Shown piece by piece: positions 6,204-31,984 of a stretch of DNA of 64,000 nt. The translations under genes were made by a program, and so were the position numbers. The first letter of the stretch is position 1. The number at the start of each line of letters is the position of its first letter. A model generated the notes under the pieces. That model saw only the letters and a list, made by a program, of their open reading frames with translations, ran no database searches and was not told where the DNA came from. The DNA is from Arthrobacter sp. H35-D1 (GTDB lineage Bacteria > Actinomycetota > Actinomycetes > Actinomycetales > Micrococcaceae): positions 1 to 64,000 of the forward strand of contig NZ_JASISP010000021.1 of NCBI RefSeq assembly GCF_030063185.1, in the 5' to 3' direction.

Positions 6204-7033
6204 CGGCGGTTCTTGATGACATGGACTCCAGGCCCGGAAGCACCACTTCCTTGTTGCGCACAGTCATAGGTTTGTACCTAAGGGAGACAGGGGGCTGGAT
6301 GGCCTCCAGCGCCCTGGTTGAGCTGATGCAGGCCATGGATATCCCAGCAACCCTGACACGTACTGCCTTGACGCGGCTGCGAAAAAAGGCCGTGGTGGTT
6401 TCAGCGGCACGTGATGGGATGGCTGGGTATGAGCTGGATTCCCGTGCGGCACGGATGCTGGAGCGTGGAGACAGACGCATCCATGCTCCTCGGTCCATGG
6501 ACGCCCACGATCCATGGTGCCTCATCTCCTTTTCGCTGCCAGAGTCCGAACGCGAACGCCGGCATCAGTTGCGCCGGCAGTTGCATTGGATCGGGTGCGG
6601 GATGGTCTCCCCCGGCCTGTGGGTTGCCCCGGACTATCTGCGCAAGGAAGTTGCGGAGATCCTGGAGTCTTTGGGCTTAGGCGAGCGGGCGGTGTTGTTC
6701 ACCACCTCGCGCCCCCATGTTATTGGGGAGCTGCGCGATGTGGTCGCCGGTTGGTGGGACCTTGATGCCATCGCGACCCTGTACCTGGACTTCATCAAGT
6801 TCACCGAACAACTCCCCCAGGGTGGGGTGGACGCCGCCCCGCAGGCGTTTGCCACCTATGTGAACTTGATTGATCGTTGGCGCATGATCCCCTACCTCGA
6901 CCCGGGATTGCCCACCGACTGCCTGCCCTCCGATTGGCCGGGCGGAGCGGGCGTTGCCATATTCCAGCGGATCAGCAAATCCCATGCACCGGCCAGCAAG
7001 GCGTTCGTGGCCTCCGTCACCGCGCCGCGCTAG
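6200..7033 (+). CDS. PaaX-family transcriptional regulator
   Basis: A GTG at 6200 overlaps the kynU TGA as GTGA, giving a 277-residue protein; an in-frame ATG at 6221 is the alternative. The N-terminus is a winged-helix domain (LLRTVIGLYLRETGGWMASSALVELM, then LTRTALTRLRKKAVV), and the middle has the PaaX-type WCLISFSLPESERERRHQLRRQLHWIGCG segment followed by the usual C-terminal region. Known PaaX proteins repress phenylacetate catabolism by sensing an aryl-CoA. Here the coupling to kynA-kynU suggests control of tryptophan or anthranilate breakdown, which is inference. No operator was recognised. Confidence 0.85.
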   Translation: MTAVLDDMDSRPGSTTSLLRTVIGLYLRETGGWMASSALVELMQAMDIPATLTRTALTRLRKKAVVVSAARDGMAGYELDSRAARMLERGDRRIHAPRSMDAHDPWCLISFSLPESERERRHQLRRQLHWIGCGMVSPGLWVAPDYLRKEVAEILESLGLGERAVLFTTSRPHVIGELRDVVAGWWDLDAIATLYLDFIKFTEQLPQGGVDAAPQAFATYVNLIDRWRMIPYLDPGLPTDCLPSDWPGGAGVAIFQRISKSHAPASKAFVASVTAPR

Positions 7034-7075
7034 AACTGCACATGTGCCATCGTCAAGGACGCCGCTCCGGGCAGC

Positions 7076-7831
7076 TCAGCGCTGCTCCATCCAAAGACGC
7101 CGCTCCATCCAAGGAACTGCGTTGTCCCAATGCGGCGCGGCCGGGTCTATCGCCTCCATGTGGAACAAGTCCGGGGTCTGCCGGAAATCCACGACGTCGC
7201 CCGCGGCCACTGCCGCTGCCACAAAGTCCTCCGAGTGGACTTCCGGGACATGTTCATCAACAGTGCCGTGGATGACGAGCAGCGGCTTTTCAATGGGGAC
7301 CCGGCAGATCGGTGAGGCAAGGTTGTAGGCGTCCTGCATATCAGCAAAGTGTCCGCCCATGAATCCGAGCGCGGCGTTGTCATCCAGTTCTTCAGCGTCG
7401 ACGCGCCGCACGTCGGTCACCGGTGCAAGAGCCACGACGGCGTCGGCAAGGTGAGCGGCCAAAAGCGCCAGCTGACCACCCACGGAATGGCCCACGGTTA
7501 CCACTGCCCCCGCGGAGCACCACTGCGGGCGCGCGTCCTTGGCGCACCGGATGCCAGCCAGGACGTCGTCGAGCGTGATGGGCCAGCCGCCGCCATTGCC
7601 CACGCTTCGGTATTCGATGTTCGCCACGGCCCAACCGCGCGCCAACAGATCATGGGCCAGGGAATGCATGAGCGTGGCGTCCCACATTGCCCGCCAATAC
7701 CCGCCGTGGATGAGGATGGCGTACCCTTTCGGGGTTTCAACGTGTGGCGTCCAGAGCTCCACGAACTGCGGGTCGGCTGCCCCGTAGCGCACGATCTCCG
7801 GCTCATCAATCGCCGGGATGGGAACGGTCAT
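7076..7831 (-). CDS. Alpha/beta hydrolase, kynurenine formamidase-like
   Basis: A serine hydrolase of 251 residues with the oxyanion-hole motif HGGYW near residue 42, the nucleophile elbow GHSVGG, and acid/base residues in the C-terminal half (VIHGTVDEHVP and LFHMEAID). The HGGYW form and the length are typical of the hydrolase-fold kynurenine formamidases that convert N-formylkynurenine to kynurenine. Lying convergent to kynA-kynU, it supplies the missing middle step, so that role is likely though inferred. The ATG at 7831 is used because AAAGGTGA lies 8 nt upstream; a TTG at 7837 is too close to it. An esterase of other specificity is the main alternative. Confidence 0.75.
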   Translation of the reverse strand: MTVPIPAIDEPEIVRYGAADPQFVELWTPHVETPKGYAILIHGGYWRAMWDATLMHSLAHDLLARGWAVANIEYRSVGNGGGWPITLDDVLAGIRCAKDARPQWCSAGAVVTVGHSVGGQLALLAAHLADAVVALAPVTDVRRVDAEELDDNAALGFMGGHFADMQDAYNLASPICRVPIEKPLLVIHGTVDEHVPEVHSEDFVAAAVAAGDVVDFRQTPDLFHMEAIDPAAPHWDNAVPWMERRLWMEQR

Positions 7832-8227
7832 GGGCAATTCACCTTTCTGTCAGCTGTGGTGGCCACTGCACCGCCGAAGCCATGCAAGTGGGGGTTCTCC
7901 GGCGCCTACCGTGTGCCGCCTGCACCCACATTACCGACTGGCTCCCCATGACAAGCTCAACAGCATGGGCCTGCGGGTGGCATCGAAGACCACGTGCAAC
8001 GCTTGCCAGTTTGACGGTGACGCAACCGCCGTCGTTCTTCCCACTTCCCAGCAGTCTGTGTGGGAGCACAGCCGGCCTCGATGGCGGTACTGGGCCACCT
8101 TGGCGAACGGGGGTCGTTTACGGACATGTAGTCACGGCCGGAGTTGCGCGGACAACTCCCTGCAGTAACGTGGTTCACAATGCGTGGTGGAAAACCTGCC
8201 GCGCGCAGACTCATGGAAGGTGAGACG
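7832..8227. other. Divergent intergenic region between formamidase and Hen1
   Basis: About 400 bases that must carry the promoters of both divergent units. Small frames on both strands overlap each other and have no family signature. I could not pick a confident -35/-10 pair for Hen1; GGAAGGTGA at 8215-8223 serves as its ribosome binding site. Confidence 0.5.
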
Positions 8228-9658
8228 TTGCTGATCAGCATCACCCTCGAGCCGGGGGCTGATTCCCCCATCGATGCCACGGCTTTGTCCCATCTACTGC
8301 GCAAGCACCCCGGGCGCTTGCAAACTTTTGAGTTGCCGGTGGGCAATGCCCACGTGTTTTACCCGGAGTATTCCCCGCAACGAACCACGGCGGTCCTGCT
8401 GTTGGAGGTTGATGCCATCGGTTTGGTCCGCAACAAGCGCTTCCGTGGCGACAACGGTGTGCTGGACTACTACATCAATGACAGACCGTACACGGCCTCC
8501 AGCCTGTTGGCCGTGGCCCTGGGCAGGGTGCTGCGAAACGCCATGACGCCCACCAGCGAGGCCTACCCGGAGTTGGCCGACACCCCGCTGCCGCTGCGAC
8601 TTGTTGTGCCGGTGATCTCCACCCGCGGCCGTGACGGGCACGATCTGGCCGAGCGCTTGTTCGCCCCCTTGGGCTGGACCATCGAGCAGCGGCCCATCGC
8701 CCTGGACGAGATGTACCCCTTGTGGGAGGACTCGCGCTACAGCAGTCTGGTGCTCACCGGGTCGGCGCCCTTGCATGTGGCCCTGCGTCAGCTTTATGTT
8801 CTGCTGCCGGTACTGGACGACAGCAAGCACTATTGGGTCAGTGATGACGAGGCCGAGAAATTGGTGCGTCAAGGCGAGGGCTGGCTGCCCGGGCATCCCG
8901 AACGCGCCTTGATCTCCCACCGGTATCTGGCCCACCAAAAAGATTTGGTGGCTGCGGCCGATACACGCATTGCCGGAGAATCAACTGCGTCCGTTGAAAG
9001 CACGACGCCGCTGCCCCCTTCCCCTGGTGCGTCGGCTGGTGCGTCAGTACAGCCGTTGCGCGTGCAACGTGCGGAGGCGGTCCTGACGGCGCTGAAGGAT
9101 TGCGGTGCCCGGCAGGTGGTGGATGTGGGCTCGGGGTCGGGTGCTTTGCTGCGCCGGATGCGAAAGGATGGCTTCTTCACACGAATCCTCGGCACGGATG
9201 TATCAGCCCGGTCGCTGGAACAAGCCGCCCGCGTCATGAACGTGGATGAGCTCGCTGACACCGACAGGGCTCGGATCACGTTGCTGCACAGCTCCGTGCT
9301 GTACCGCGACGAACGGATCGCGGGCTTTGATGCGGCCGTGTTGATGGAGGTCATTGAACATATCGAACCAAGCAGGCTTTCCGCGCTGGAGGATTCGATA
9401 TTTGCCGGGGCCGCGCCGGCCAACGTGATCGTGACCACCCCGAACTCCGAGTACAACCACTTGTATCCGGCGCTGGCCCATGGAGGCATGCGGCATGATG
9501 ACCACCGATTCGAATGGACGCGGGCCGAGTTCACCCAATGGGCGGAAGGGGTGGCAGAACGCCATGGCTACGGCGTCGAGTACCGCCCCGTGGGTGAAAC
9601 TTCCCTGAGCTCCGGCGCCCCCACCCAGATGGCAATCTTCCGAAAGGCAGGAGCATGA
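8228..9658 (+). CDS. hen1: 3'-terminal RNA ribose 2'-O-methyltransferase Hen1
   Basis: Bacterial Hen1 methylates the 2'-OH at the 3' end of a cleaved RNA before Pnkp reseals it, which protects the repaired site. The N-terminal domain (about 1-240; LLRKHPGRLQTFELPVGNAHVFYPE, LLLEVDAIGLVR) is the part known to support the Pnkp ligase. The C-terminal methyltransferase has VDVGSGSGALLRRM near 297, the Mn-binding EVIEHIEPSRL near 374-384 and HDDHRFEW near 424. A TTG at 8228 is preferred because GGAAGGTGA precedes it; the frame extends to 8144 and an ATG lies at 8213. The stop overlaps the Pnkp start as ATGA. Confidence 0.93.
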   Translation: MLISITLEPGADSPIDATALSHLLRKHPGRLQTFELPVGNAHVFYPEYSPQRTTAVLLLEVDAIGLVRNKRFRGDNGVLDYYINDRPYTASSLLAVALGRVLRNAMTPTSEAYPELADTPLPLRLVVPVISTRGRDGHDLAERLFAPLGWTIEQRPIALDEMYPLWEDSRYSSLVLTGSAPLHVALRQLYVLLPVLDDSKHYWVSDDEAEKLVRQGEGWLPGHPERALISHRYLAHQKDLVAAADTRIAGESTASVESTTPLPPSPGASAGASVQPLRVQRAEAVLTALKDCGARQVVDVGSGSGALLRRMRKDGFFTRILGTDVSARSLEQAARVMNVDELADTDRARITLLHSSVLYRDERIAGFDAAVLMEVIEHIEPSRLSALEDSIFAGAAPANVIVTTPNSEYNHLYPALAHGGMRHDDHRFEWTRAEFTQWAEGVAERHGYGVEYRPVGETSLSSGAPTQMAIFRKAGA

Positions 9659-12177
9659 GCGAGATTCAGATCCCGGAGGTCGGGCTGGTGCTGCTGGTCG
9701 GTGTTTCCGGTTCGGGCAAGTCCAGCTTCGCGGCGAGGCACTTTGGTGACTTCGAGGTGCTCTCCAGCGATTACTTCCGGGGGCTGGTGGGCAACGATGT
9801 GACGGACCAATCCGTGACCCCGGCGGCTTTCGAGGCCTTGAACTTCGTGGCCACCAAGCGCTTGGAAGCCGGCCTGCTGACAGTGGTGGATGCCACCAAT
9901 GTCCAGCCCTCCGCCCGGCAGAAATTAGTGGACGTGGCCCGGGCGCAGGACGTGTTGGTTTCGGCGATTGTGCTGGATGTGCCGCTGAAGCTGTGCCTGG
10001 AACGCAATGAGGGCCGTGGCGCCCGGACGGTCGCACCCACGGTGATTGACCGCCAACACCGGCAGCTGGTCAAGTCCCTGCGTGGAATGCGCCGGGAGGG
10101 TTTCCTCCGTGTACATGTGTTGTCCTCGCAGGAAGAAGTCGACGGCGTGGAGATCCACCGACACAAGCTGCTCAATGACTTCCGCGACGAGCATGGGCCG
10201 TTCGACGTGATCGGGGATGTCCACGGCTGCCTGGATGAGCTGTTGCTGCTGCTTGAGGAACTCGGTTACACAGTGGGCCATGATGAAGCCGGCCGTGCCA
10301 CGGATGCCGCACATCCCCAAGAGCGCCGGGTGATTTTCGTGGGAGACCTGGTGGACCGCGGTCCTGACTCGGCCGGTGTATTGCGGCTCGCCATGGGCAT
10401 GGTGGGCAATGGCCACGCCCTGTGTGTGCCGGGCAACCATGAGGACAAGCTGGTGCGCGCGTTGCGCGGGCGCAAGGTTGCCCTGACCCACGGGCTGGAC
10501 GCAACACTGGCCCAGCTGGCCGAGCAGGAGGAAGGATTTGGCCGCAAGGTAGCCGACTTCTGCGACCGGTTGGTTTCCCACATGGTGCTGGATGACGGCA
10601 AGCTGGTGATCGCCCACGCAGGGCTGATTCAGCAGTACCATGGCCGGGCCTCCAAACGGGTGCGTGCCTTTGCCCTGTTTGGGCAGGTGACCGGAGAAAT
10701 CGACGATTACGGCCTGCCGGTGCGCCACCCTTGGGCCAACGAGTACCGCGGGGACGCGATGGTGCTCTACGGACACACGCCCGTCACCGAGGTGGCCTGG
10801 ATCAATAACACCGCTTGCTTGGATACCGGCTGCGTATTCGGCGGTGCACTGAGTGCCATGCGGTATCCCGAACGCGAGGTGGTCCAAGTCCGGGCCCCAA
10901 AGCAGTACTGCGAACCTGGAAGGCCGCTTGAATCCCCGCGCGGTCCGGAACGCGAGCCCGGTGTTCTCTCCATCGAGGACGTCTCAGGCTCGCTGCACTT
11001 GAGGTCCGAGGGTCTGGGGACGGTAAGGATCAACGAGGCCCAGGCTGCCGGTGCATTGGAAACCATGAGCCGATTTGCCATAGACCCGCGGTGGCTGTGC
11101 TATCTGCCGCCCACCATGTCCCCGTCCGAGTCCTCATCCCAGCCCGGTTATTTGGAGCACCCGGACGAAGCGTTTGCCTACTTCCGGCGCCAAGGCGTGA
11201 CGCAGCTGGTCTGCGAGGAGAAGCACATGGGCTCACGCGCGGTGATGCTGCTGTCTCGAAACCCCGGACGATTCGACGCGCCCGAAGACTGGCTGGGTGT
11301 GCTGCATACCCGCACCGGGCGTCAGTTTCTGGAAGCTGAGCATGAACGCCGGGTCCTGTTGCAGGCCCACGAAGCCGCGGAACGCGCCGGGCTGTGGGAC
11401 GAGCTGGGCAGCGATTGGCTGATTCTCGATGGCGAGTTGATGCCGTGGTCGCTGAAGGCAGAGCCATTGATCAAAGAAACTTACGCCTCCGTGGGCGCCG
11501 CAGCCATTGCAGCAACCGATGCCGCCGTGGCGGTGTTGGATTGTACGGCCAACACTGGCATTGACGTCCAGGACCTGCTCGCGCGTACCCGTACTCGTCA
11601 GTCGAACGCCAAGGCCTTCCGGGACTCCTACAGGCGTTATGTAGGTTCCGCCGACGAGCTGCGTTTCGCCGCTTTTCAAGTACTGGCTGCCGAAGGCCGG
11701 AGCTTTGAGACCCGGGACCACGGGTGGCACTTGGAAATCAGCGACAGGCTCGCTGCGGTGGGACCCAACCTCTTTGCCCCAACCCGGTACCTCCGTGTGG
11801 ATCTGAGCCAGGACAAGGATTTGGAGACCGCGGTGCGCTGGTGGGAAGAGGCAACAGCTGCTGGTTCCGAAGGCATGGTGGTCAAGCCGTGGCAGAACCT
11901 GACCAAGGCGAAGCGCGGCTGGGTGCAACCGGGTATCAAGGTTCGCGGCAAGGAATATTTGCGGTTGATCTATGGCCCGGACTACTTGGAGGAAGTCAAT
12001 CTGGAACGCCTGCGTCAGCGTGCCACGGACAAGAAGCGCAATCGTGCCCTGCATGAGTACATTCTGGGGCTTGAAGCCTTGCGGCTGACGTCTGCGGGAG
12101 CACCACTGTGGAAGATCCATCAAATGGTCTTTGGAGTCCTTGCGCTGGAATCCGAGCCCCTGGACCCCCGGTTGTAG
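9655..12177 (+). CDS. pnkp: Polynucleotide kinase-phosphatase-ligase Pnkp
   Basis: A three-domain RNA repair enzyme of 840 residues. The N-terminal kinase has the P-loop GVSGSGKS (16-23) and phosphorylates 5'-OH ends. The central metallophosphatase has DVIGDVHGCLDE near 183-194, GDLVDRGPDS and PGNHEDK near 258-264, and removes 2',3'-cyclic or 3' phosphates. The C-terminal adenylyltransferase-ligase has its nucleotidyl lysine in EEKHMGSR (K about 523), DGELMPW and EGMVVKP. With Hen1 directly upstream and overlapping by 4 nt, the operon should heal, methylate and seal RNAs cut by ribotoxins. All three active-site sets look intact. Confidence 0.95.
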   Translation: MSEIQIPEVGLVLLVGVSGSGKSSFAARHFGDFEVLSSDYFRGLVGNDVTDQSVTPAAFEALNFVATKRLEAGLLTVVDATNVQPSARQKLVDVARAQDVLVSAIVLDVPLKLCLERNEGRGARTVAPTVIDRQHRQLVKSLRGMRREGFLRVHVLSSQEEVDGVEIHRHKLLNDFRDEHGPFDVIGDVHGCLDELLLLLEELGYTVGHDEAGRATDAAHPQERRVIFVGDLVDRGPDSAGVLRLAMGMVGNGHALCVPGNHEDKLVRALRGRKVALTHGLDATLAQLAEQEEGFGRKVADFCDRLVSHMVLDDGKLVIAHAGLIQQYHGRASKRVRAFALFGQVTGEIDDYGLPVRHPWANEYRGDAMVLYGHTPVTEVAWINNTACLDTGCVFGGALSAMRYPEREVVQVRAPKQYCEPGRPLESPRGPEREPGVLSIEDVSGSLHLRSEGLGTVRINEAQAAGALETMSRFAIDPRWLCYLPPTMSPSESSSQPGYLEHPDEAFAYFRRQGVTQLVCEEKHMGSRAVMLLSRNPGRFDAPEDWLGVLHTRTGRQFLEAEHERRVLLQAHEAAERAGLWDELGSDWLILDGELMPWSLKAEPLIKETYASVGAAAIAATDAAVAVLDCTANTGIDVQDLLARTRTRQSNAKAFRDSYRRYVGSADELRFAAFQVLAAEGRSFETRDHGWHLEISDRLAAVGPNLFAPTRYLRVDLSQDKDLETAVRWWEEATAAGSEGMVVKPWQNLTKAKRGWVQPGIKVRGKEYLRLIYGPDYLEEVNLERLRQRATDKKRNRALHEYILGLEALRLTSAGAPLWKIHQMVFGVLALESEPLDPRL

Positions 12178-27785: not shown

Positions 27786-28181
27786 TCACCTTGGGATGGA
27801 GCCGGGACTGGCTTCTATGGTGAGGATGTGGACATGGACTGGGCCGGGGTTCAGTCCCGTGTGGCAAATATTCTCACGGACTCGTTCTTGCACGCTTTCG
27901 GCAACGCTCAGGGCGGTGTAAGCAATGTCAGTGGCTATGTCCAGATGGACAGTTGCCGTGCCGTCGTTGATTCGCGCGACGACCCCGTCATGCCGATAGC
28001 TGCCGTCTTGGCTGCCGGAAATGTGGAAGTTCGCCAAGGCAGCAGGTCCGAGGCTGGCAAGGAAGCCCTTGATGGTGGGTTCGAGCCTGAGGACTCCCGG
28101 GGTTTCCAGCGCAGTGCGGGCAGCCAGGGATGCGATTAGTTCACTGTTGATGAGGGACCCTTGGAGATTTTGCTCAGACAT
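27786..28181 (-). CDS. Asp23/Gls24-like small protein, third gene of the sigma operon
   Basis: From ATG 28181 (131 residues), overlapping the stop of the preceding gene by 8 nt. The core reads AARTALETPGVLRLEP, then GVVARINDGTATVHLDIATDIAYTALSVAESVQERVRENI and VHVHILTIEA. That fits the Asp23 layout: an A..ipGV strand, a beta strand carrying IDI/LDI, a helix with VQ..V and a final VxVxVxxv strand. Asp23-type proteins are cytoplasmic and membrane-tethered by AmaP in Staphylococcus. No transmembrane segment here. It probably forms mixed assemblies with the other Asp23-like proteins of the locus; that is inference. Confidence 0.7.
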   Translation of the reverse strand: MSEQNLQGSLINSELIASLAARTALETPGVLRLEPTIKGFLASLGPAALANFHISGSQDGSYRHDGVVARINDGTATVHLDIATDIAYTALSVAESVQERVRENICHTGLNPGPVHVHILTIEASPGSIPR

Positions 28182-28740
28182 CGTACAGGTCCTCCACTGT
28201 GATGTTGACGGTTCCGGCATCAATTCCGACGCCGGCAGGGATGGCCTTGTTGATCTTTTGCCGCAGTCCCTCAACAGTTGCGGGAATGTCAATGCCTGAA
28301 GCCGTGGCAACCCGGAGATTGATCGTCAGGTGGGTGCTGCCCATTTCAGCGTCGGACTGCACTTCAATCCGGCAACGCCGTGAATGGATTCCAGGTATCG
28401 CAGCCGCGGCCAGCCGGATCAGTGAGCTCAGTGCTTGTTCACTGATCTCGACAGTTCCGTATTCCGTGCCCCGCAGCACGAGTCTCTTGCTGCGGCGGGC
28501 TTCTGCGCGGGCCAGGGCCATGATGGAGTTCGTCCGCTCGGCTGGAAGCGTCATCTCCGGATTGTGCAGGTCGCTTTCGCGCAAGGCGACGGTAGCTTCC
28601 TTGATTTTTTGCATCCGAGCCTTGGCCGCTTGGCATAGCTCGCAGTCTTCTTCGTGCGAGGTGGGTGGCTGGTCCATGCCGGCCCAGATCTGGTCGATAC
28701 TGCGGCCACATCCAAGGCGGCGTGTGTCTTCTAGCGCCAC
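28174..28740 (-). CDS. Zinc anti-sigma-like N-terminus joined to an Asp23/Gls24 domain
   Basis: A GTG at 28740 overlaps the sigma factor stop and has AAGGGA 7 nt upstream, giving 188 residues. The N-terminal 40 residues contain C11, H29, C33 and C36 (LGCGRS..., then HEEDCELC), the HxxxCxxC arrangement of zinc-binding anti-sigma (ZAS/zf-HC2) domains. A helix follows (AAKARMQKIKEATVALRE). The C-terminal part, about 75-188, is Asp23-like: ISEQALSSLIRLAAAAIPGIHSRRCRIE, STHLTINLRVATASGIDIPATVEGLRQKINKAI and VNITVEDL. Coupling to an ECF sigma makes an anti-sigma role likely. No membrane helix is present, so any membrane link would come through partners. The fusion is seen directly; its function is inference. 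Confidence 0.72.
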   Translation of the reverse strand: MALEDTRRLGCGRSIDQIWAGMDQPPTSHEEDCELCQAAKARMQKIKEATVALRESDLHNPEMTLPAERTNSIMALARAEARRSKRLVLRGTEYGTVEISEQALSSLIRLAAAAIPGIHSRRCRIEVQSDAEMGSTHLTINLRVATASGIDIPATVEGLRQKINKAIPAGVGIDAGTVNITVEDLYDV

Positions 28741-29327
28741 TGGCTCATCCCTTCTGCTATCCGGCGCCGAGCGCGGGCAAGTGTCCCGCGGACCGTCGTG
28801 GGGTTGATCTTGAGTGTGACACCGATTTCTGCGTAACTTCGTCCATGGATTTCCCGCAGCAGCCAGCAAGCCCGTTGCACGGCAGGGAGAGTGTTCAGCA
28901 CCGTCGTCAACCCATCCTGTTGAGCCGCCCACTCGGCCGAAGCGACCGGATCAGCCTCCAAGGGTGCCCTGGTGGCGCCGTCGTCAAGTGTGGAGTGGAT
29001 CTCCGCCGGGTCCGTGATGGTTTCGGCTCGAGCTGAGCGTTTCCGCAGTAGATCCAGGCATTTGTTGGTTGCCAGCCGATAGATCCAACCGCCAAAGGCT
29101 TTGACATCGGAGAGCATCGGCAGGGCGCGCCAGCTGGCCGTGAGTGTTTCCTGAACCACGTCTTCGGCATCCGTACGGTCGTTGAGCATCCTGTATGCCA
29201 GGCGAAAGAGCCGGTCTTGGTAGGTGTGCACAAGATGTTCGAATGCTGCCAAGTCGCCGTCCTGGGCCCGAGCAACGATGCTTCCCTCGTCAGTATCCGC
29301 GTCACAGGCCGGGTTGGAATCATTCAT
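28731..29327 (-). CDS. ECF-type RNA polymerase sigma factor
   Basis: 198 residues from ATG 29327 (GGAAGG 6 nt upstream). Region 2 is HLVHTYQDRLFRLAYRMLNDRTDAEDVVQETLTASWRALP followed by FGGWIYRLATNKCLDLLRKR; region 4 is LPAVQRACWLLREIHGRSYAEIGVTLKINPTTVRGTLARARRRI, with the helix-turn-helix for the -35 element. There is no region 1 or 3, as in ECF sigmas. The start of the following anti-sigma-like gene lies inside its last codons. It faces away from the Asp23 operon, which it probably controls together with its own promoter. The recognised promoter sequence could not be identified. Confidence 0.92.
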   Translation of the reverse strand: MNDSNPACDADTDEGSIVARAQDGDLAAFEHLVHTYQDRLFRLAYRMLNDRTDAEDVVQETLTASWRALPMLSDVKAFGGWIYRLATNKCLDLLRKRSARAETITDPAEIHSTLDDGATRAPLEADPVASAEWAAQQDGLTTVLNTLPAVQRACWLLREIHGRSYAEIGVTLKINPTTVRGTLARARRRIAEGMSQWR

Positions 29328-29543
29328 TGATTGCCTTCCCTGTCCCCTACCGGGTGAGCTGCCGGTGCTTGCCCCCAATATGCCACAGACATGGTCAGCA
29401 AGGAACCATTGGTTTCGGACGCAGCCACTCGCACGAAAAATGCCGGGAGAAAATACTTCGAGCCAGGGCGTGACGATTGCGGCCAGCGTCCGTCTTTAAG
29501 GGTGTAAGCGAAATCACATTTTCTTTCGAAGGAGCTGTTTTCC

Positions 29544-30062
29544 ATGGCAGAGTCATCCAAACCCGACACGCAGTCCAGCGGTTTGCCGGCCACCACTGAG
29601 GAGCAGAAGCGCAACGTCCCCCAGCTGCAGGAGCAACCCAAGCGTCACGATGCATTGCACACGGACCGCGGTGACACCATGATCGAGGAAACCGTGGTGC
29701 AGAAGTTGGCGGGGATCGCCACCCGCGAGGTCCCGGGTGTGTACGCGATGGGCAGTTCGGCGCGACGTGCGTTCGGCGCCTTCACGGAACGCATCCCGGG
29801 CTCGCAAATCAATGTCAGTGGAGGTGTCAGCGTCGAAAAGGGCGAACGCCAGACAGCAATTGATGTTTCCATCGTCGTGGAGTACGGCATCTCCATCGTT
29901 GAGATCAGCCAAGGCATCCGACGCAACGTCATCCAGTCCGTTGAGCACAGCACCGGCTTGGAAGTGCTGGAAGTCAACGTCAACGTCACCGACGTCCACC
30001 TGCCCGAGGACGACCGGCAAGACCAACAAAATCAGCAGGAACCCAAGACTGAACTTCAATAA
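29544..30062 (+). CDS. Asp23/Gls24 family envelope stress protein
   Basis: 172 residues with an AAGGAG site 9 nt before the ATG. A Ser/Pro/Gln-rich, charged N-terminus of 45 residues precedes the Asp23 domain: MIEETVVQKLAGIATREVPGVYAMG, VSVEKGERQTAIDVSIVVEYGISIVEISQGIRRNVIQSVEHSTGLEVLEVNVNVTDVHL. The tail is Gln/Asp/Glu-rich. This is the most canonical Asp23 of the locus. In Staphylococcus aureus, Asp23 is abundant, binds AmaP at the membrane and relates to cell wall stress. It is the first gene of the rightward operon, divergent from the sigma factor. Confidence 0.92.
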   Translation: MAESSKPDTQSSGLPATTEEQKRNVPQLQEQPKRHDALHTDRGDTMIEETVVQKLAGIATREVPGVYAMGSSARRAFGAFTERIPGSQINVSGGVSVEKGERQTAIDVSIVVEYGISIVEISQGIRRNVIQSVEHSTGLEVLEVNVNVTDVHLPEDDRQDQQNQQEPKTELQ

Positions 30063-30064
30063 TT

Positions 30065-30102
30065 CAACGGCACCGGGCGGGGTTCCCCGCCCGGTGCCGT
30101 TG
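30065..30102 (+). terminator. Perfect 18-bp-arm hairpin inside the Asp23 operon
   Basis: The arm at 30065-30082 is exactly complementary to 30085-30102, with two bases between, so the loop must open a few pairs. It starts 3 bp after the asp23 stop and 20 bp before the next gene. There is no T-run. It may partly terminate transcription or stabilise the upstream mRNA, making the first Asp23 more abundant than downstream products. Confidence 0.6.
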
Positions 30103-30122
30103 AGTCCCAGGGAGGAAGAAGA

Positions 30123-30308
30123 ATGGCTATGTCTACTACACGTTGGTGCTTGACGATAGGGCTGGTGCTTGGAATAGTTTTGGCTTTCGGCGGCTGGTGG
30201 GCCCTGTTGTCCGCCGTGGTCCTGGGCTTTATCGGCATGATTGTGGGTCGGGTGGCCGAGGGAAAACTCGACATGGCCGCCTTGTTCGGTAAAGCAACAA
30301 GCCGATGA
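30123..30308 (+). CDS. Small two-helix membrane protein, DUF2273-like
   Basis: 61 residues with GGGAGGAAGA right before the ATG. Two hydrophobic helices (LTIGLVLGIVLAFGGWWALLSAVVLGFIGMIVGRV) with a tight turn and a short C-terminal tail (KLDMAALFGKATSR). Small membrane proteins of the DUF2273 type occur beside asp23 and amaP genes and are thought to help anchor the complex. The TGA overlaps the next start as ATGA. Confidence 0.75.
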   Translation: MAMSTTRWCLTIGLVLGIVLAFGGWWALLSAVVLGFIGMIVGRVAEGKLDMAALFGKATSR

Positions 30309-30730
30309 ACCCGCAAGGCGCGCAAGCCCAGTCATTGGACACGCGCAAGGATCCCGTTGCCGGCAGCATTGATGCACGCGGGCACACGGTTCTGGCGAAC
30401 AAGGTTGTCGAGAAGATCGCCAGCCAGGTCGCCGGCGACGAAGCGGTGGCGGGAGGTTCCTCCGGCGGTTTTCTGGGCATCGGCGCCCATGCGGATCTCA
30501 CTTCCCGGCCCAAGGTGTCGGTGGAACTCAGCGGGAACATGGCGACCCTCCGGGTCGACGTCGGCATGCTCTACCCTGCCCCTTTGCGCCAGGCCACAGA
30601 AGACCTGCGTCAACGCATCCGGGACAGGGTCATGGAACTGACAGGTGTTGAAGTTCGCCACGTGGACATCAAAGTTTCGTGGCTCACCACTGCCGATGCC
30701 GACGCCGGCGGGGAAAGGAAATTGCTATGA
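30305..30730 (+). CDS. Second Asp23/Gls24-like protein of the rightward operon
   Basis: 141 residues. After a short hydrophilic start, the domain reads RGHTVLANKVVEKIASQVAGDEAVAG, KVSVELSGNMATLRVDVGMLYPAPLRQATEDLRQRIRDRVMELTGVEVRHVDIKVSWL. It lacks the charged tails of the upstream Asp23 and looks like the diverged paralogue found in actinobacterial asp23 operons before DUF6286. Overlaps both neighbours as ATGA, so the three genes are strictly coupled. Confidence 0.8.
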   Translation: MNPQGAQAQSLDTRKDPVAGSIDARGHTVLANKVVEKIASQVAGDEAVAGGSSGGFLGIGAHADLTSRPKVSVELSGNMATLRVDVGMLYPAPLRQATEDLRQRIRDRVMELTGVEVRHVDIKVSWLTTADADAGGERKLL

Positions 30731-31326
30731 GCCGCAATGACGGACGTTCTTCCCGCCTTCGGCGCCGCCCCAGCCGCACCGTGCCGGCCATCGTCGTCGG
30801 AATTGTGCTTCTGGCCGCAAGTGTCGCCTTGGCATGGGCAAGCATTGCCCGGCTGATCGACGGCACTTGGTCCACCCTCCTGCTGGGTCTCCGGGACTGG
30901 CTGGTTGGCCTGCATTGGGACGATCCATCCCTGTGGATCATTGGAATAGTCGCCGTCGTGGTTGGCGTGGTCCTGTTGCTGTGCGCACTCATTCCCGGCG
31001 CATTCAGCGCCCTGACAGTGCGCAACGCCACCGCCCGAGCAGACGCTGATGCGCAGGAGCACGAACACACTGCGGCGGAACGGGAGACCGTGATGACCCG
31101 CCGTGCCGTGGCCCATCTGGCCAGGGCACAATGCGTAAAACTCGATGGAGTGGGAACGGCATCGGCAACGGCCAGCAACAAACGGGTACATCTGAAGGTC
31201 GATACCTCCTTGCGGGAAACCGACGATCTTCGCATCCGCGTCATTGAAGACGTCCGAGACCGGCTAAACACCACCGGGCTCGACCCGTTGCCGCGCATCA
31301 CCGCCACCATCGAAACCACAGGATGA
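30727..31326 (+). CDS. DUF6286-like membrane protein
   Basis: From ATG 30727 (199 residues), overlapping the previous stop as ATGA. An Arg-rich cytoplasmic start (SSRLRRRPSR) leads to two membrane helices (VPAIVVGIVLLAASVALAWASIARL and WIIGIVAVVVGVVLLLCALIPGAF). A C-terminal soluble domain of about 100 residues follows (VMTRRAVAHLARAQCVKLDGV, HLKVDTSLRETDDLRIRVIEDVRDRLNTTGL). That domain resembles an Asp23-type fold attached to the membrane, consistent with DUF6286 proteins of actinobacterial asp23 loci. It likely tethers soluble Asp23 proteins. Confidence 0.78.
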   Translation: MSRNDGRSSRLRRRPSRTVPAIVVGIVLLAASVALAWASIARLIDGTWSTLLLGLRDWLVGLHWDDPSLWIIGIVAVVVGVVLLLCALIPGAFSALTVRNATARADADAQEHEHTAAERETVMTRRAVAHLARAQCVKLDGVGTASATASNKRVHLKVDTSLRETDDLRIRVIEDVRDRLNTTGLDPLPRITATIETTG

Positions 31327-31366
31327 GATCCAGCTCCACCCACCATCAATCCCGGAAGGAAATCCG

Positions 31367-31984
31367 ATGAGACAAACAGCCGGAACCCTGAATCGCACGT
31401 GGCTGGCGATTCTGGGCATTCTCGTTCTGGTCGCCGGCGTCGCAGTACTTTTGCAGGCCACAGGAATCCTGCAAAACGTGCTGCAAACCCCGCTCCGCGG
31501 CGCAAAGATTGTTACCGGCGGGCTGCACCCGTTCTTCGCACAACAGTGGCTGGTGATTCTCTTTCTTGCCGTCGGCATCATTGTTGGCGTACTGGCCCTG
31601 TTGTGGATCATCGCGCAGATCCCACGGAAGAATCTGGCCGAAACCTACAGGCTGCAGCAGCCAGGCGCACAAGGAAGAACCACCTGCGACCCTTCCGTGC
31701 TCGCCGACGTCGTGGTGCACCAGATCAACACGCTGCCCGGCGTGGTCGCCTCTTCCGCCCTGCTGCGCGGAACCGCCGACGAACCCGATCTGACCTTGAA
31801 GGTCACTGTCAACGATGAAGCCGATGTCCGGGCACTGCTGCGCCACCTTGAAAGCACCACGTTCATGGAGCTGTCCACCGCTTTGGAAACACCTGTGATC
31901 AAGCGCCGAGTACAAATCGATGTCAGTGCACGCAACCAAAACAGCGGAACCGTGACCCAATCCGGCGGTATCGTCCTCCAGTAG
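31367..31984 (+). CDS. amaP: AmaP-like Asp23 membrane anchor
   Basis: 205 residues. Two N-terminal membrane helices (LAILGILVLVAGVAVLLQATGIL, QQWLVILFLAVGIIVGVLALLWIIAQI) enclose a short extracytoplasmic loop. A cytoplasmic domain then reads DVVVHQINTLPGVVASSALLRG, DLTLKVTVNDEADVRALLRHLE and IKRRVQIDVSA, again the Asp23-like strand-helix-strand pattern. AmaP of Staphylococcus anchors Asp23 to the membrane. This actinobacterial version is similar in layout but divergent, so the symbol is by analogy. SD GGAAGGAAATCC precedes the ATG. Last gene of the operon. Confidence 0.75.
   Translation: MRQTAGTLNRTWLAILGILVLVAGVAVLLQATGILQNVLQTPLRGAKIVTGGLHPFFAQQWLVILFLAVGIIVGVLALLWIIAQIPRKNLAETYRLQQPGAQGRTTCDPSVLADVVVHQINTLPGVVASSALLRGTADEPDLTLKVTVNDEADVRALLRHLESTTFMELSTALETPVIKRRVQIDVSARNQNSGTVTQSGGIVLQ

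Follow-up and report, generated by a model that had tools for sequence, protein, structure and literature searches.

A predicted zinc anti-sigma/Asp23 fusion protein encoded with an ECF sigma factor beside an Asp23 operon in Arthrobacter

Introduction

Asp23 proteins are found in many bacteria, and the asp23-amaP operon of Staphylococcus aureus is controlled by SigB. The genes of the anti-sigma factors ChrR, RsrA, and RshA are situated just after the sigma gene; the C-terminal domain is a cupin in ChrR and is missing in RsrA and RshA. In S. aureus, AmaP anchors the filament-forming Asp23 to the membrane, the cell-wall stress response is induced when either protein is lost, and the molecular function of Asp23 is called still unclear in the available portions of the source (PMC6954212). 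Sigma factors of the groups ECF286 and ECF292 adjoin soluble Asp23-family proteins that were predicted as anti-sigma factors, a prediction for which experimental data are stated to be lacking in the available portions of PMC8999054.

Here we describe a locus in a 64,000-nt stretch of Arthrobacter sp. H35-D1 (contig NZ_JASISP010000021.1, positions 1 to 64,000), referred to as the window. Compared by gene neighbourhood, it resembles ECF286 and ECF292, as its sigma factor gene also adjoins a gene for a soluble Asp23-family protein.

Gene organization of the locus

Three overlapping genes are located on the minus strand. An ECF sigma factor of 198 aa (28731..29327, minus strand) matches Sigma70_r2 with 66.7 bits, Sigma70_r4_2 with 44.5 bits, and TIGR02937 sigma70-ECF with 93.8 bits (cut-off 42.9). 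Its gene overlaps by 10 bp with that of the predicted anti-sigma/Asp23 fusion of 188 aa (28174..28740, minus strand; GTG start at 28740, stop 28174-28176), the stop of which is in turn overlapped by the ATG of asp23C (27786..28181, minus strand). The third gene encodes a small Asp23-like protein that scores 27.7 bits against Asp23, just under the cut-off of 28.

A divergent operon at 29544-31984 on the plus strand is composed of asp23A (29544..30062; Pfam Asp23 97.9 bits), a gene for a small DUF2273-like protein (30123..30308; 15.8 bits, below the cut-off of 25.4, with a position conserved in relatives), asp23B (30305..30730; Pfam Asp23 30.6 bits, cut-off 28), a DUF6286 gene (30727..31326; 76.0 bits, cut-off 35), and a gene for an AmaP-like membrane anchor (31367..31984; NF033218 anchor_AmaP 51.8 bits, just below the cut-off of 55). 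In its combination of Asp23 with a putative AmaP-type membrane anchor, the operon resembles the asp23-amaP operon of S. aureus. A sequence-only reading of this DNA had placed the sigma and fusion genes at these positions with an overlap, and had described a further Asp23-like gene after the fusion as well as a divergent Asp23-AmaP operon; all of this was recovered on re-reading, the third gene and the anchor with scores slightly under their cut-offs. Neither a tRNA nor an Rfam family at gathering score was found in the window.

The same genome contains a diverged second copy of all eight genes (L029; G000:C21:18000-33000, 6553-10746), which also carries the promoter-like site GTGACG-N15-CGTCTTTA described below. 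The two fusion proteins are 60% identical, and cross-talk between the two sigma pairs of the genome is possible.

Domain structure of the fusion protein

Residues 1-85 of the fusion (28486..28740, minus strand) are assigned to a zinc anti-sigma domain on the basis of profile match, ligands, and an AlphaFold model. Cys11, His29, Cys33, and Cys36, which the sequence-only reading had located correctly, form an HxxxCxxC motif plus an upstream Cys. For a profile-profile comparison, 25 fusion N-termini (18 of set A1 and those of L079-L085) were aligned, with L042 omitted from set A1 as the same protein as L041, and L047 and L098 omitted from the 25 rows for want of a zinc domain. The target consisted of 29 zf-HC2/ZAS proteins from related genomes, one of 30 loci (L120) having been dropped as below the cut-off. 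With hhalign a match of 96% and a score of 49 was obtained, compared with 16 for the best of 100 column-shuffled decoys, and the alignment spans the first ligand through helix 4. When the four ligand columns were masked, the score of 21.7 remained above that of the decoys (at most 10.5); thus the match comprises more than the motif alone. Profiles of seven further families encoded at the locus reached 0.51% or less in this comparison.

In the AlphaFold model, which is of moderate confidence (pLDDT 72.6, pTM 0.48), helices are predicted at residues 15-20, 28-32, 34-59, and 67-86, and the Hx3Cx2C motif at residues 29-36 straddles helices 2 and 3. According to the available portions of PMC7406223, class I anti-sigma domains contact sigma region 4 through helices 1-3 and region 2 through helix 4; the N-terminal domain of the fusion agrees with the class I description given there in having four helices with Hx3Cx2C across helices 2 and 3.

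Single-sequence searches of the fusion N-terminus against Pfam and NCBIfam all remained below cut-off. The commonest NCBIfam match was TIGR02451 anti_sig_ChrR, found weakly for 8 of the 18 fusion members (best E 0.0032); those shown to match do not include the window protein. Pfam zf-HC2 matched only three of the 18 members (best E 2.8), again without the window protein. No anti-sigma structure was present among the 10 Foldseek matches of the N-domain model (best E 2.8), a profile search of PDB sequences with the N-terminus yielded DdvA (0.14), human ZBTB17 (0.67), and RsiW (0.97), none of them significant, and the full-length fusion profile retrieved ZBTB17 alone (1.6). The earlier assignment of the N-terminus to ZAS/zf-HC2 domains is supported by the profile-profile comparison; Pfam zf-HC2 misses the window protein itself. 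The conservation of the ligands in orthologues, which had been named as a check, is borne out, since all four are complete in 22 of the 25 aligned fusions including that of the window. Taken at the level of aligned profiles, homology of the N-terminus to zinc anti-sigma domains is supported, and the 188-residue fusion is very probably an anti-sigma factor.

Residues 86-188 (28174..28485, minus strand), in which an Asp23-like domain had been proposed, indeed match Pfam Asp23 with 35.4 bits (cut-off 28) and the Asp23A profile with 97.8% in hhalign, and are predicted to adopt an alpha/beta fold. Foldseek matches of the full model (best 50 of 1300, E up to 10) belong for the most part to small alpha/beta domains found in cation-diffusion transporters, e.g., MamM, with no anti-sigma factor among these best 50. 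The proposed absence of a membrane helix agrees with a highest 19-residue Kyte-Doolittle mean of 1.09 for the window fusion, compared with 3.09 for the AmaP-like neighbour. None of the 25 fusions shows an indication of a membrane helix, the highest mean being 1.69.

Occurrence in related genomes

A scan of the genome contigs with the window fusion protein alone returned nothing. The search covered 58 genomes including that of the window, and 19 of them contain a fusion match; Asp23 is present in 5 of 14 control genomes. In all 18 related loci chosen by a fusion match (L029-L046), the sigma gene is located directly before the fusion gene, Asp23A and DUF2273 genes occur in the same locus, and the sigma and fusion genes overlap by 10 bp, with start codons picked by alignment (two CTG and one TTG among them). 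Judged from these 18 loci, the association of sigma, fusion, and Asp23 genes is more than chance. The divergent layout of the window recurs in L029-L031, and the other 15 loci are co-directional.

In a phylum-wide draw of 396 genomes, 130 match the fusion profile, eight of which (the window's own included) do so over most of its length and above 80 bits. The others, among the matches listed, begin no earlier than profile position 49 and mainly cover the Asp23 part. Sigma, fusion, and Asp23A are all present in loci from the remaining seven of these eight genomes (L079-L085). A sole match among 72,556 records is given by L139 on a Streptomyces anulatus plasmid (NZ_CP109253.1, 175296-185838), which has the divergent layout of the window and carries an annotated sigma factor, Asp23/Gls24 proteins, and a DUF6286 protein. 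L083-L085 group with this named plasmid locus, and we call them Streptomyces-like. The plasmid is typed as mobilizable.

An Arthrobacter-type locus, L135 (NZ_JADHDY010000003.1), is titled Sporosarcina beigongshangi, and this organism name looks misassigned. In a Streptomyces-like family (L086-L090), a divergent Asp23-like gene is situated beside an Asp23 operon; L086-L089 gave no sigma match and L090 gave a weaker one, and these loci possibly represent a separate type of regulator.

Every one of the 23 genomes of the genus contains an Asp23A-type gene. Two or three such genes are present in all 16 genomes with the fusion and exactly one in all seven genomes without it, which indicates that the sigma-fusion pair is gained or lost together with an additional Asp23A-type gene. 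In the loci read, this additional gene stands in the operon beside the pair.

Promoter-like sites upstream of asp23A

A predicted promoter, GTGACG-N15-CGTCTTTA, precedes asp23A at 29470..29498 on the plus strand. The motif was defined from an alignment of the sigma-asp23A intergenic regions of the window, L029, and L030, and was assessed by motif comparison and genome scan. A scan of the 4.46-Mb genome for GTGASG-N15-CGTCTTTA that tolerated at most one mismatch yielded 2 sites, each located before an asp23A gene, versus none for the reversed control. The short form GTGACG-N15-CGTC is not rare, with 9 sites in the genome versus 28 for the reversed control and, with one mismatch, 6 matches in the window versus 7.6 expected. 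On the evidence of these scans, only the longer form ending in CGTCTTTA is specific.

Of 29 sigma-fusion loci, 21 carry a looser motif upstream of asp23A versus 0.72 expected, a count that is partly circular because the -10 variants CGCC, TGTC, and CGAC were let in after the loci had been viewed, and in which both members of the near-identical pairs L041/L042 and L032/L036 were kept. The same motif is present in one of nine Asp23 loci without a sigma-fusion pair (0.22 expected). No site of the counted form precedes asp23A in L031, L046, L081, L084, and L137. L029, L030, and L044 were scored as misses since the reading frame taken for the count extends beyond the start codon, the sites themselves being present, and in L139 the counted site falls inside the sigma coding region. 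Upstream of the sigma gene, the looser motif occurs in five of the 29 loci versus 0.58 expected, most clearly in L081, L082, and L083, in the last of these on both divergent sides; none was found upstream of the window's own sigma gene.

A related form, GTGASG-N16-CGCCTTA, occurs at 15 sites in 13 of the 23 genus genomes (control: 4), and 13 of these sites precede asp23A of a sigma-fusion locus. One lies before another Asp23 operon of the window type (L194 in genome G006), and the remaining one, in G003, appears by eye to fall inside the coding sequence of another gene and was taken as a chance match. Among seven more distant relatives, 9 sites of the longer pattern were counted versus 6 for the control; five of the nine are at the locus, and two of the seven genomes contain no site.

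The operon of L194 (5330-7829 of its sequence) lacks a sigma-fusion pair of its own and has a distant sigma gene beside it. Its promoter form is the one found with the other sigma subtype, which is encoded elsewhere in G006, as if it had been rewired.

A circuit involving the sigma factor and Asp23 had been suggested from the window alone, and the conserved promoter-like site before asp23A ties the sigma factor to the Asp23 operon. Since such sites are joined by the additional Asp23A-type gene that accompanies the fusion, the sigma factor probably drives the Asp23 operon with the fusion as its brake. That the sigma factor drives this operon is highly probable. From these findings together we infer a sigma factor narrowly dedicated to the Asp23 operon.

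Proposed circuit

The following three steps are proposed for the locus. In the first, which is well supported by the comparisons above, the fusion would act as a soluble class I anti-sigma factor whose zinc domain clamps the sigma factor, helices 1-3 presumably contacting sigma region 4 and helix 4 region 2. In the second, likewise well supported, the free sigma factor would transcribe asp23A-DUF2273-asp23B-DUF6286-amaP from GTGACG-N15-CGTC, and in some relatives probably its own gene as well. In the third, the Asp23 domain of the brake would join the Asp23 layer anchored by AmaP. An intact layer would keep the brake engaged; with a depleted or disturbed layer, the Asp23 part of the brake would be left unassembled, the clamp would loosen, and the sigma factor would make more scaffold.

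Considering the three steps together and leaving the sign of the feedback aside, we regard the circuit as slightly better than an even bet, and for the Asp23 domain of the fusion as the sensor the chances are about even. The third step as a whole is favoured here as a negative-feedback homeostat, and negative rather than positive feedback is overall a tentative choice. The simplest role for the Asp23 domain of such a brake would be to report on the Asp23 layer. It is possible, if doubtful, that the system reduces to the polymerising Asp23 membrane layer as sensor, with an anti-sigma factor that co-assembles with it by way of the Asp23 domain of the fusion, a sigma factor that reads the intact layer and refills it, and a zinc finger that is a dispensable structural part.

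Alternative explanations

The zinc ligands could instead form a thiol switch as in RsrA, in which oxidation releases zinc and the sigma factor and the Asp23 domain merely tethers the brake near the membrane. Soluble class I anti-sigma factors are enriched in zinc motifs and often redox-linked according to the available portions of PMC7406223, and the retention of four ligands in 22 of 25 fusions fits such a switch. However, some or all ligands are absent in L046, L079, and L080, and in case of L047 and L098 the gene after the sigma gene encodes an Asp23 protein without a zinc domain. These loci sit in three places on the sigma tree, all of them have kept sigma factor and Asp23 part, and L079 and L080 retain the promoter-like site despite their incomplete ligands. 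On this tree, in which the outgroup sigma of L090 occurs twice and is scored as without zinc ligands, the ligand-bearing state needs four changes, three of them forced by well-supported branches. One of the four is due to the outgroup L090, where such a fusion is lacking, so that three losses follow from the tree as drawn and fewer from its supported branches; the branches of L031, L046, L085, and L098 are long and uncertain in placement. Since the zinc domain was lost while the Asp23 part stayed, the pattern argues, short of proof, that the Asp23 domain rather than zinc redox carries what the system needs for its signal. We consider the thiol switch unlikely.

A partner switch, in which Asp23C as an anti-anti-sigma factor or co-sensor binds the Asp23 domain of the fusion and frees the sigma factor without any reading of the layer, would account for the overlap of asp23C with the fusion gene in the window. 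Relatives of Asp23C were found in L029, L030, and weakly L031 (E 0.0012) as well as in L081 and L082, and a small gene annotated as hypothetical follows the fusion in S. anulatus, though it was not reported by the Asp23C profile. In the co-directional loci L032-L046 and in L083-L085, however, Asp23C was undetected while the sigma, fusion, and Asp23 genes persist, which makes a partner switch rather improbable.

That the fusion is not an anti-sigma factor at all but a paralogue of Asp23 whose zinc knuckle is structural, beside a sigma factor regulated by its own level, is in line with the missing Pfam match of the window protein's N-terminus and with the lack of anti-sigma factors among the Foldseek matches listed, but is very improbable: the ZAS match includes the first ligand, continues through helix 4, and scores clearly higher than the decoys, and in all 18 related loci the gene is coupled to that of the sigma factor by a 10-bp overlap.

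Comparison with known systems

In the literature search no experiment on a pair of ECF sigma factor and Asp23 anti-sigma factor and no paper naming the GTGACG promoter was recognised among the matches listed, and Asp23 is unmentioned in the main text of PMC7406223. The details added here could already stand in the 2021 ECF classification or its supplement.

The S. aureus system differs from the locus in that neither an ECF pair nor an Asp23-bearing anti-sigma factor is mentioned in the available portions of PMC6954212. With ChrR, RsrA, and RshA the fusion shares an anti-sigma domain that has Hx3Cx2C, a Cys upstream of it, and a fourth helix; it differs from them in its C-terminal domain, which is Asp23. 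If layer sensing holds true, the fusion would be, to our knowledge, the first anti-sigma factor to monitor a polymer-forming scaffold of the membrane from the cell interior. Control by the switch seems to extend to the genes of the scaffold itself and could let the cell sense and adjust its Asp23 scaffold. A sigma factor seemingly dedicated to the Asp23 operon, together with an Asp23 domain in its brake, offers a genetic handle on what the layer responds to, and the GTGACG-N15-CGTC promoter is a concrete reporter for such responses.

Closest to the locus are ECF286 and ECF292 of the 2021 ECF classification, for which soluble Asp23-family proteins as anti-sigma factors were already predicted. 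The available portions of PMC8999054 name ZAS domains for ECF270 and ECF271 and none for the Asp23 groups, for which no promoter or target operon is named either. The anti-sigma domain, the promoter, and the loop are added here, and with them a prediction drawn from gene neighbourhood becomes a model at the level of domains, which offers residues for testing and names a target promoter.
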